Source: Lachnospiraceae bacterium
GTDB taxonomy: Bacteria; Bacillota; Clostridia; Lachnospirales; Lachnospiraceae
DNA: 47,873 nt
Reading direction: 5' to 3'
Assembly (NCBI GenBank): GCA_022781925.1
Contig: JALESO010000027.1
Coordinates: 1 to 47,873 of the forward strand
In this document: piece by piece, positions 21,648 through 47,873 of the stretch
Numbering within the stretch: position 1 is the stretch's first letter
How the letters are laid out: each line of letters begins with the position of its first letter
Made by a program: the position numbers and the translations under genes
The notes under the pieces: model-generated
Database searches by the model: none
What the model was told of the DNA's origin: nothing
The model's input: only the letters and a program-made list of their open reading frames with translations

Positions 21648-21945
21648 CAAAAAAGCCCCTGACTGTGAAACTTCACAGCCAGGGACGAATATACGTTTCG
21701 TGGTGCCACCCTTTATTCATTGTGCTCTGCACAACCTCAATCCGATACGGAATCTCTTCGATATCTTTCCCCTGTAACGTGAGGACACGGCATCCGCTAC
21801 TTACAGCCACCTGCGTTCGCTTTGCATCTCTCAAATCCATTCCCTCTATGCTTACCTGCCGGAATCTCACCACCACCGGCTCTCTGTAAAGCAGTGCCAC
21901 AAAGGTACTCCTTTTGTTCTTTGATTTTATTCTCTGTTGTTCGCT
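21648..21945 (-). ncRNA. T-box riboswitch (tRNA-Trp sensing) with terminator, upstream of trpE
   Basis: On the minus strand the T-box sequence AGGGTGGCACCACGA lies at 21712-21698. It is followed by a terminator whose arms, CCCTGGCTGTGAA and TTCACAGTCAGGGG, lie in 21684-21655 with a T-run to 21648. Further 5' are AGAGAG, the GGTGGTG apical region and a specifier region reading GAATGGATTTGAG, in which TGG (tryptophan) is followed by A. Uncharged tRNA-Trp would stabilise the antiterminator and turn on the operon. It fills most of the 544-nt gap before trpE. Confidence 0.93.
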
Positions 21946-46339: not shown

Positions 46340-46556
46340 TATCATAGTTTTCTCTGTATGTAACCCTGATTTTTCGTCACTATGTCCCGTTCAGACATAT
46401 ACGCGCATCTCAATCTCATGTACACGACTGGTTCATAAGGAAATTGCTGACAGAATCCATTCGTAATCCGGATATCCACTATCATGTTTGTTCTTCGACG
46501 ACTTGCGTAGCACTCATATTTGTTATAAGATAAAAGAAATTCTATCATAGTTTTCT
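46340..46556. repeat. About 190-bp segment bounded by 14-bp direct repeats
   Basis: TATCATAGTTTTCT occurs at 46340-46353 and 46543-46556. The segment between lies in the 325-nt gap separating the TraX-like and SDR genes. On the minus strand an ORF of 68 codons starts in one copy and stops in the other. It has no recognised family and no clear ribosome binding site. It could be an inserted element with its target duplication, or the result of an old rearrangement. Apart from this the gap shows only the SDR ribosome binding site. Confidence 0.45.
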
Positions 46557-46621
46557 ATTATGAAAACTTTACCGATAGCACACTAAATGATTTTCGAAAT
46601 AATCCGGAGGATTTTATATAT

Positions 46622-47419
46622 ATGAATATTGCAATTATCACTGGTGCTTCCAGTGGGCTCGGACGTGAATTTGCTTTGCAGATCTGTCAAAACTATGCTT
46701 CTGAAATTGATGAAATCTGGCTGCTGGCCAGACGAAAAGAACCTCTGCTCGCTCTGGCACAGGAAATTTCCGCCACAGGAATCTGTGTCGGTGCCGCTAT
46801 GCCGATGGATATTACAGATGAGGAACAGATGAAAGATTTTCAGGACAAGCTGGATATCGAAGCTCCTACGGTCAAATATCTGGTAAATGCCGCCGGTCTT
46901 GCAAAAATTGGCGGTCCATTTACGTTGCAGCCGGAAGAATTAACCCATATGATCGATCTGAACTGTAAGGCAGCCGTTCATATGACGGCGATCTGTATGC
47001 CACATTTTGACAAAGGTTCCAGAATTTTACAAATTTGTTCCACTGCCGGTTTTCAACCAATGCAGGGACTTAATGTATATGCCGCATCCAAAGCATTTCT
47101 GCTCCGTTACAGTCAGGCGCTTCGTTGGGAATTGATTGGAAAACAGATCTATGTGACAGCGGTCTGCCCATATTGGATCAAAGATACTGAATTTATCGGT
47201 GTTGCAAAAGACACTGACAACCCGAAAGCAGCTCATGCAGTACATCACTTTCCACTGGCTTCCAAAACAAAATCTGTGGTACGTCTTGCCCTGCTTGATA
47301 ACAAACTTGGACTTTGGGTATCCACTCCTGGACCAGTCTGTTTTGTACACCGGCTATTCTGTAAGATTATGCCACCGGTGGTTGCCATGGGTTGGTGGGA
47401 ACTGCTACGGCGCGTATAA
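46622..47419 (+). CDS. Short-chain dehydrogenase/reductase
   Basis: A 265-residue Rossmann-fold oxidoreductase. The cofactor loop TGASSGLG is at 7-14, NAAG at 89-92, the catalytic Ser about 140 (ICSTAGFQP) and Tyr153/Lys157 in YAASK. LLARRKE after strand 2 suggests NADP(H). The substrate is unknown; the closest general type is a classical SDR with a C-terminal hydrophobic tail. CGGAGG lies 11 nt before the ATG. It is followed by the two hairpin units described at 47460-47656. Confidence 0.92.
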   Translation: MNIAIITGASSGLGREFALQICQNYASEIDEIWLLARRKEPLLALAQEISATGICVGAAMPMDITDEEQMKDFQDKLDIEAPTVKYLVNAAGLAKIGGPFTLQPEELTHMIDLNCKAAVHMTAICMPHFDKGSRILQICSTAGFQPMQGLNVYAASKAFLLRYSQALRWELIGKQIYVTAVCPYWIKDTEFIGVAKDTDNPKAAHAVHHFPLASKTKSVVRLALLDNKLGLWVSTPGPVCFVHRLFCKIMPPVVAMGWWELLRRV

Positions 47420-47459
47420 ATCTTGTTCCGGGTAATTGTGTGGTTTTTAAAGGAAGGTT

Positions 47460-47540
47460 ATGAAAAGGGGACTCTGCGATTTTGTCTCGCCCGCTAACAA
47501 TCGCTGGGCAAGAAAAAATAGCCAGAGTCCCCTTATTTAA
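47460..47540 (+). repeat. Hairpin unit A with 13-nt conserved loop and a 26-codon ORF
   Basis: AAGGGGACTCTG (47465-47476) pairs perfectly with CAGAGTCCCCTT (47523-47534). Inside, GCCC (47489-47492) and GGGC (47506-47509) enclose the loop GCTAACAATCGCT (47493-47505). An ORF runs exactly across the unit, from ATG 47460 behind AAGGAAGGTT to TAA at 47540, and contains ANNR at codons 12-15 and RK at 18-19. The loop recurs inverted in unit B. Could be a terminator for the SDR gene, a dispersed element, or a small structured RNA or peptide gene. Confidence 0.6.
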
Positions 47541-47563
47541 ATGTTACAGATGCTTTTCACAAA

Positions 47564-47656
47564 TTACAATAAAGTAAATTGAGCGCCAGTCATGCAATCT
47601 TTCCTCGGCAAGCGATTGTTAGCTGTAGAGGTAAGATTGATGACTGACGCTTTCAC
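47564..47656 (-). repeat. Hairpin unit B, convergent partner with the same 13-nt loop and a 30-codon ORF
   Basis: The arms 47583-47606 and 47628-47650 pair over about 20 bp with one bulge and two mismatches. The loop holds AGCGATTGTTAGC (47611-47623), the exact reverse complement of the unit A loop. On the minus strand an ORF runs from GTG 47656 (context AGGTTGTGAAA; unit A has AGGTTATGAAA) to TAA at 47564. The start-to-loop distance is 33 nt in both. Codons 12-15 again give ANNR and 18-19 RK, whereas the stems differ. It lies 20 nt after the accA stop. Confidence 0.6.
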
Positions 47657-47676
47657 AACCTAAATTTTAAGCCACC

Positions 47677-47873
47677 TTAAAATTTACGGAACCGTTCGTA
47701 TCGTTCTTCGGCAAGTTTTTCCGGTTCTTTTTCAAGATTTTCCGCCAGGAAACCACGAATCCTGTTCTTCATATCCTTACTGAGTTCCACCAGATTGGCC
47801 TCACTTGCCGGCATCGGCTCCTCTATGACATCATCCACGATTCCCATTTCCAGCAGTTCTTTTGCCGTTACTT
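47677..47873 (-). CDS. accA: Acetyl-CoA carboxylase carboxyltransferase alpha subunit, C-terminal end
   Basis: Only the last 65 codons are in the window. They read VTAKELLEMGIVDDVIEEPMPAS, then a helical tail ending RYERFRKF and TAA at 47679-47677. The LTAKDLL.LG.IDEIIPEP pattern is typical of the AccA C-terminus, which with AccD transfers carboxyl to acetyl-CoA in fatty acid synthesis. The start of the gene and the rest of the presumed acc/fab operon lie beyond the window edge. Called from this short end only, so somewhat less certain. Confidence 0.8.
   Translation of the reverse strand, partial: VTAKELLEMGIVDDVIEEPMPASEANLVELSKDMKNRIRGFLAENLEKEPEKLAEERYERFRKF

Follow-up and report, generated by a model that had tools for sequence, protein, structure and literature searches.

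Within the last 400 bases of the window (the whole stretch of 47,873 nucleotides that was analysed), two hairpins, denoted A and B, occupy the gap between two convergent genes. The first gene (positions 46622–47419, forward strand) encodes a short-chain dehydrogenase (PF00106, E = 1.6e-36), and the second (47677–47873, reverse strand), cut by the window end, the C-terminus of an acetyl-CoA carboxylase carboxyltransferase (ACCA; PF03255, E = 2.7e-10). Unit A (47460–47539, forward strand; stem-loop 47465–47534) is situated at the 3' end of the dehydrogenase gene, with 45 nt between the stop codon and its stem, and unit B (47576–47657, reverse strand; stem-loop 47582–47651) at the 3' end of the ACCA-family gene. 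There is one hairpin per gene, each downstream of its own gene and on that gene's strand. A longer unit (47421–47538, forward strand), comprising A and an outer left arm (GGGTAATTGTGTGGTTTTTAAA), is 90% identical to positions 11–128 of the unit at locus L014, another place in the same genome.

The initial annotation had described an identical 13-nt loop in both hairpins, different but self-complementary stems and an equal distance from start codon to loop, and all three observations hold. The loop GCTAACAATCGCT is exact in A (47493–47505, forward strand) and in B (47611–47623, reverse strand), the start codons (ATG at 47460, GTG at 47656) lie 33 nt from it, and both stems, which differ in sequence, fold on themselves (predicted RNA folds of -38.2 kcal/mol, z = -7.7, for A and -37.3 kcal/mol, z = -7.0, for B). 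With one mismatch allowed, the loop matched the window twice against 0.06 expected, and none of 100 shuffles gave two matches. These common features are real, yet not private to the pair. A comparison with Rfam gave a single match above the gathering score in the window, a T-box leader located elsewhere (21678–21930, reverse strand, 107 bits); the best sub-threshold match to the A/B region, mir-74, reached 21 bits against 57, and six further loci returned two tRNAs only.

A and B belong to a large and apparently undescribed family of DNA palindromes located at gene ends in Eubacterium ramulus, an inhabitant of the human gut, and some of its relatives. Searching other genomes for the loop, a step suggested in the initial annotation, revealed many copies, foremost in the E. 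ramulus group. The family loop derived from 149 loops is GCTARYAATCGCN, exact in 88 of them, the remainder being mostly GCTAACAATCGCC (n = 15) and GCTAGCAATCGCT (n = 13). In the 2.93-Mb assembly to which the window belongs (G000), the exact loop occurs 40 times and the same pattern read backwards 10 times. The loop combined with the motif to its right was found 38 times in this genome, 41 times in G012 and 6 times in G009, and gave no match in 17 other genomes of the genus or in 41 genomes outside it. A scan of named genomes returned 46 stretches, 42 of them from E. ramulus and the other four being single matches in unrelated phyla, with flanks that, inspected by eye, contain no such stem. One of the 40 exact cores (L005, 526–538) has different flanks, with a short hairpin (AGATAT/ATATCT), and is located directly upstream of a TTGACA...TAAAAT promoter-like stretch, followed by a gene that we take to encode leucyl-tRNA synthetase.

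A covariance model (R1) was built from an alignment (A1) of 55 diverse copies, from which similar copies and five cores lacking the right-hand motif were left out. Units A and B score 75.3 and 66.1 bits against it. Among the best 150 candidates per genome, and with antisense twins counted, R1 identified at least 104 matches in G000, at least 43 in G009 and at least 104 in G012 (104 and 43 being the figures for two E. ramulus genomes). Across 20 genomes it gave, in addition, one weak match each in G005, which is a true copy, and in G007, which was dropped as a hairpin without the loop. Among the fetched stretches, G000 accounts for 85 distinct places, 80 of which have no more than three loop changes, and the E. 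ramulus loci for 64; the total for the G000 assembly is about 80 copies.

Alignment A1 showed strong covariation, as the initial annotation had suspected for stems around a fixed loop. Paired cells amounted to 86.6% against 61.2% in shuffled alignments, and cells changed on both sides to 383 against 123. The covariation value of 0.655 (shuffled, 0.196) was reached by none of 500 shuffles and fell to at most 0.230 when the alignment was slid; two further measures, based on counting pairs or pair types, were not clearly above the shuffles, being reached by 45 and 123 of the 500. Above a free lower stem, the hairpin exhibits an upper stem of the form ATTTTG(T/C)YTC / GRGAAAAAT, and one position of the stem is unpaired, being G.A in 81 of the 109 copies whose stems are ungapped. 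Outer inverted arms enlarge the inner hairpin of about 80 nt to a unit of about 150 bp. When one such unit was used as a query, eight other places of at least 100 nt were retrieved at 71–90% identity, three of them 139–148 nt long. Folding of eight copies gave -37 to -47 kcal/mol for seven and -56 kcal/mol for L256.

Copies were also identified outside the E. ramulus group. G005, from another species of the same genus, contains three copies with the loop GCTAATAATCGCT on stems unrelated to those of E. ramulus. One is located between what we take, from the translations, to be pgk and tpiA, and two in tandem between presumed scpA and scpB; all three sit between same-strand genes, the tandem pair being oriented opposite to the flanking genes. 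In G134, from another genus of the bacterial family, a second model (R2) produced 21 matches, of which 19 were accepted as copies; L343 and L344 were dropped, not being hairpins of this kind. The G134 stems are near-perfect, with about 25 pairs, and the loops, considered only where they follow GC and precede GC or AC, are TAGCCATC (7 copies), TATTTATC (3), TAGTAATC, CAGCAATC and TGGCAATC (2 each) and TAGCAATC and GAGCAATC (1 each), one further loop (L316) having been mis-picked by the script. The neighbouring genes are arranged (-,-) in seven cases, (+,-) in seven, (+,+) in three and (-,+) in one, with one case open, and both orientation and stop distance are looser than in the E. ramulus group.

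Among 397 genomes drawn from the bacterial family, G000 included and with 13 candidates scored for each, matches were found in G000, G009, G134 and, doubtfully, G427, whose single R2 match was dropped for its different loop; the range is accordingly patchy, and the figure is a lower bound. The consensus GCTARYAATCGC was also sought in 200 genomes of the bacterial family, where the matches read outside the group, save those in G134, were 16S-like or had stemless flanks. The consensus spans the segment GCTAGTAATCGC of the 16S-like matches (e.g., L220 and L224), a post hoc curiosity; we take these, by their flanking sequence, to be 16S rRNA. By this comparison across genera, it is the loop and the pairing that are kept, not the stem sequence, since the same core is carried on unrelated stems in G005 and G134.

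The position of the copies relative to genes was established with a codon-usage gene finder. In the E. ramulus group, 142 distinct copies were classified in this way: 61 between convergent genes, 35 codirectional in sense, 25 codirectional in antisense and 21 with a side unresolved. Among the 121 with both neighbours resolved, none was located between divergent genes. Convergent copies with a 400-base flank (59) were nearer the sense gene in 46 cases, nearer the other gene in 12 and equidistant in one. The distance from stop codon to stem was 10–63 nt in 84 of 92 sense copies (400-base flanks, both sides resolved), with a median of 39. In the window and 42 E. ramulus loci, which had been chosen for holding copies, copies occupied 24 of the 32 convergent gaps of at least 100 nt, 11 of the 121 codirectional ones and none of the 30 divergent ones. 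Among five copy-bearing gene ends picked by eye, three have matches to the phosphate acetyltransferase, glucose-6-phosphate isomerase and H+-pyrophosphatase families, and two have no match.

At convergent ends, a canonical terminator outside the element was detected at 4 of 48 ends with a copy versus 12 of 20 without (p = 2e-5); at codirectional ends the counts were 0 of 11 versus 32 of 135, a difference that is not significant (p = 0.12). The element itself contributes little to a strict scan for intrinsic terminators, which detected 5 of the 48 convergent ends when the element was retained and 4 when it was masked; at the 11 codirectional ends the counts were 1 and 0. The same scan detected no terminator-like site in positions 46500–47873 of the window. 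Of two sequence features of an intrinsic terminator, a strong stem-loop at the gene 3' end is present and a proper T-tract right after the stem is not, T accounting for just 57–65% at positions +2 to +5 past the stem; the stem edges are A-rich on the left and T-rich on the right. Since Rho is present, the hairpin could guard Rho-made ends.

The stability of these positions was assessed with 20 gene ends drawn at random from the 35 eligible in G000. Eighteen were found in G012 or G009, yielding 33 orthologous matches, of which 30 were read. Seven of the 30 were occupied within 260 nt, and in five the copy lay no more than 40 nt from the stop codon. The other 23 were empty, three of them being truncated at the end of a contig or at a run of N. 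This draw replaces an earlier occupancy of 20 of 21, a figure biased by the E. ramulus loci having been chosen for holding copies. A canonical terminator was found by scan at 7 of the 23 empty and 2 of the 7 occupied ends, and some other empty ends exhibit, by eye, a different long palindrome. At several common gene ends the two species bear different subfamilies at nearly equal distance from the gene. At the site of unit B, G012 (L361) has a copy from a different subfamily, and in G009 (L370) the site is truncated by the contig end. At the orthologous site L003/L054 the unit is inverted. An apparent insertion into a native terminator (L172/L371) was set aside, being equally explained by a deletion between GATTT direct repeats.

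Several other arrangements were observed at these loci. In L039 (6815–7010), half of an L019-type unit stops at its loop and adjoins a full unit that has a 16-bp inverted repeat, GTGTGGATGAAAATTT, at its borders. Two gene ends (L378 and L377) bear a different hairpin-tip module, CCAATGCAGGCACGAATGATTTTCTATCTGCGCTGCGCC, which in L378 takes the place where L014 has the fixed-loop family. Downstream of the unit, L014 and L023 share a second repeat, GCGCATGCATA...TATGTTGCATGCGC, of which L378 has the first part.

The way in which the stems change was analysed in 18 orthologous pairs chosen by eye, which stem from 14 G000 copies. These revealed 30 paired changes, from one Watson–Crick pair to another, versus 7 to G.T, 7 to A.C and 5 other one-sided changes; the pair L013/L069 supplies 7 of the 30, perhaps partly through a register shift, and 23 remain without it. 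The ten fixed loop positions had changed in 3 of 180 cases versus 79 of 612 stem bases (p = 1e-6, a rough value given that the 18 pairs come from 14 copies). These far fewer changes at orthologous sites suggest that selection probably maintains the loop at each site; the copies were, however, retrieved with a loop-containing model, which favours conserved loops.

One-sided changes were distributed unevenly along the stem. In 109 copies, 29 with gapped or shifted stems having been left out, the lower stem (positions 10–22) exhibited 25 G.T versus 31 A.C, rejecting a 2:1 preference for G.T (p = 0.0009); positions 5–8 exhibited 5 versus 12, and positions 1–4, beside the loop, 37 versus 10, the G134 stems having 12 versus 8. 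RNA pairing under selection would tolerate G.U better, and with no G.T excess the pairing of the lower stem looks to be maintained at the DNA level or by a template; the part of the stem beside the loop may be read as RNA. The structured RNA proposed in the initial annotation may exist, although G.U is not favoured over A.C in the lower stems. The pattern of stem changes appears to fit template switching in replication, for which two reports describe multi-base compensatory changes and the fixing of stems (PMC8794818) and arm homogenisation with spacer inversion (PMC8604942). The cases in those reports are RNA genes and yeast coding DNA, whereas the present one is a repeat family.

Judged from sequence, the element is characterised by a fixed tip, a varying complementary lower stem, a site at gene 3' ends and presence/absence turnover between related genomes. 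We lean, tentatively, towards a dispersed palindromic repeat that serves the E. ramulus group as a gene 3'-end hairpin, replacing the canonical intrinsic terminator. Its arms would be kept complementary mainly by template switching in DNA replication, one arm being copied onto the other and the spacer being flippable. The tip, an octaloop TARYAATC closed by GC/GC, would be kept by selection for recognition by a putative trans-acting protein or RNA, whether at the 3' end of the mRNA or in DNA extruded from the duplex, and the hairpin might form or protect the mRNA 3' end, perhaps with Rho. A 3'-end hairpin with a recognised tip appears the likeliest role, termination itself being putative. Against this role stand the small number of copies that pass the strict terminator scan unaided, the low T content past the stem, the non-significant contrast at codirectional ends, the canonical terminator at only 7 of 23 empty orthologous ends, the G005 copies between same-strand genes, the loose placement in G134 and the occupancy of only 7 of 30 orthologous ends; against template switching stand the G.T excess beside the loop, as RNA pairing would give, and the counts in the G134 stems. 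A more far-reaching version, which we consider doubtful, is that the lineage has a 3'-end system of its own, with dozens of unrelated genes sharing an 'address' loop, YARYAATC closed by GC/GC, read by a putative dedicated factor in trans. If this were true, termination or mRNA stability of a whole gene set could be set together, and the address would move among gene ends via repeat turnover, the stem drifting freely through template switching.

The main rival explanation, less than likely in our estimation, is a selfish REP/ERIC/MITE-like palindrome, tolerated only at gene 3' ends since insertions into promoters and genes are purged; its loop would be the recognition site of a mobilising enzyme, with no role for the host. 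The miniature dispersed element considered in the initial annotation was indeed borne out by the units of about 150 bp and their presence or absence between genomes, and the eight additional matches, the 23 of 30 orthologous ends without a copy, the different subfamilies at one gene end and the unit adjoining a truncated copy of another are all expected of selfish repeats. In G005 and G134, where copies lie beside other terminators or within operon-like gene rows, this explanation fits as well as the 3'-end hairpin or better. Conservation of the loop in vertically inherited orthologous copies, however, is unexpected for dead copies, and the full pattern had no match in viral contigs, where the bare 15-mer alone gave 20. 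A Y1 transposase appears doubtful as a partner: Y1_Tnp was detected in 8 of 20 genomes of the genus, with two 145-aa copies in G000, yet no palindrome copies were found at the 13 loci searched of 17, and G005 carries copies with no Y1 match in an assembly that is 79% complete.

A site acting in DNA, i.e., a cruciform extruded by supercoiling between convergent genes whose single-stranded loop is read by a DNA-binding protein (a topoisomerase or nucleoid protein), would agree with the lower-stem counts, the long near-perfect palindromes of G134 and the enrichment between convergent genes. We regard it as unlikely, given that template switching alone likewise yields G.T/A.C parity and that the sense-strand bias and fixed stop-codon distance in the E. 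ramulus group, together with the G.T excess beside the loop, argue against it. The A-rich and T-rich stem edges recall the 4A/4T bidirectional terminators of low-GC Firmicutes described in the accessible part of PMC1590033, and a bidirectional Rho-independent terminator could have a loop conserved only through recent descent from one source; that genera share the loop while their stems share nothing, that the loop changes more slowly than the stem in orthologues and that the U-tract is weak make this very improbable. Scarcely credible is the proposal in the initial annotation of a small peptide or of two loops kissing head to head. A and B can indeed be read as open frames, 26 and 30 codons long, the two loops complement each other on one strand, and a start codon lies exactly 33 nt before the loop in 35 of 142 copies. 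In 78 of the 142, however, the ANNR frame is closed by a stop ahead of any start codon, and a Shine-Dalgarno-like stretch was found in two of the other 64; the mini-ORFs were consequently rejected as coding. Of 93 copies, no more than 18 are followed by the complementary core within 400 nt, and A and B simply end two convergent genes, one hairpin for each.

ERIC and similar long imperfect palindromes are known repeats, ERIC being marked by its conserved arm sequence. Such elements are likewise intergenic palindromes of 100–150 bp, present in many copies and at gene 3' ends; compared by description, the present family differs in its fixed tip and free stem. REP elements and REPtrons, as covered by the available part of PMC3733652, are also repeated extragenic palindromes, with GC-flanked loops in some families. 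Unlike in REP, neither GTAG nor CGTC tags are enriched at the foot of the stem: within 8 nt of it, in 132 copies, GTAG/CTAC occurred 1 and 4 times (left and right; control, 3 and 3) and CGTC/GACG 2 and 2 times (control, 3 and 0). The AT-rich terminator-like stem-loops of low-GC Firmicutes resemble the family, in the accessible part of PMC1590033, in their location near stop codons, their preference for convergent gaps and their A-rich 5' and T-rich 3' edges. They differ from it in that no common loop is described in that part, compared with one loop in about 80 copies per genome and across genera here, and in the weak T-tract of the present hairpins.

No paper naming the family emerged from a search of titles and abstract beginnings, most subscription papers and all supplements lying outside its range. 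The part of PMC8040213 that was available lists 250 candidate palindromes from human microbiomes, of which 230 are predicted to be terminators, and its supplements may contain such a hairpin. We file the family as a variant of repetitive extragenic palindromes with a fixed tip. The pattern usual for palindromic repeats is turned round here, with the loop kept across genera and the stems free, and the family points to a putative factor that would read the ends of many, partly housekeeping, genes. Its more than 100 natural copies constitute a set with which hairpin upkeep by template switching in bacteria could be tested. Other terminator-like hairpins of the group (L368, L363 and L366) are also long near-perfect palindromes, and two changes, one paired and the other one-sided, separate L368 from L363; from these differences, template switching may act on terminators generally.
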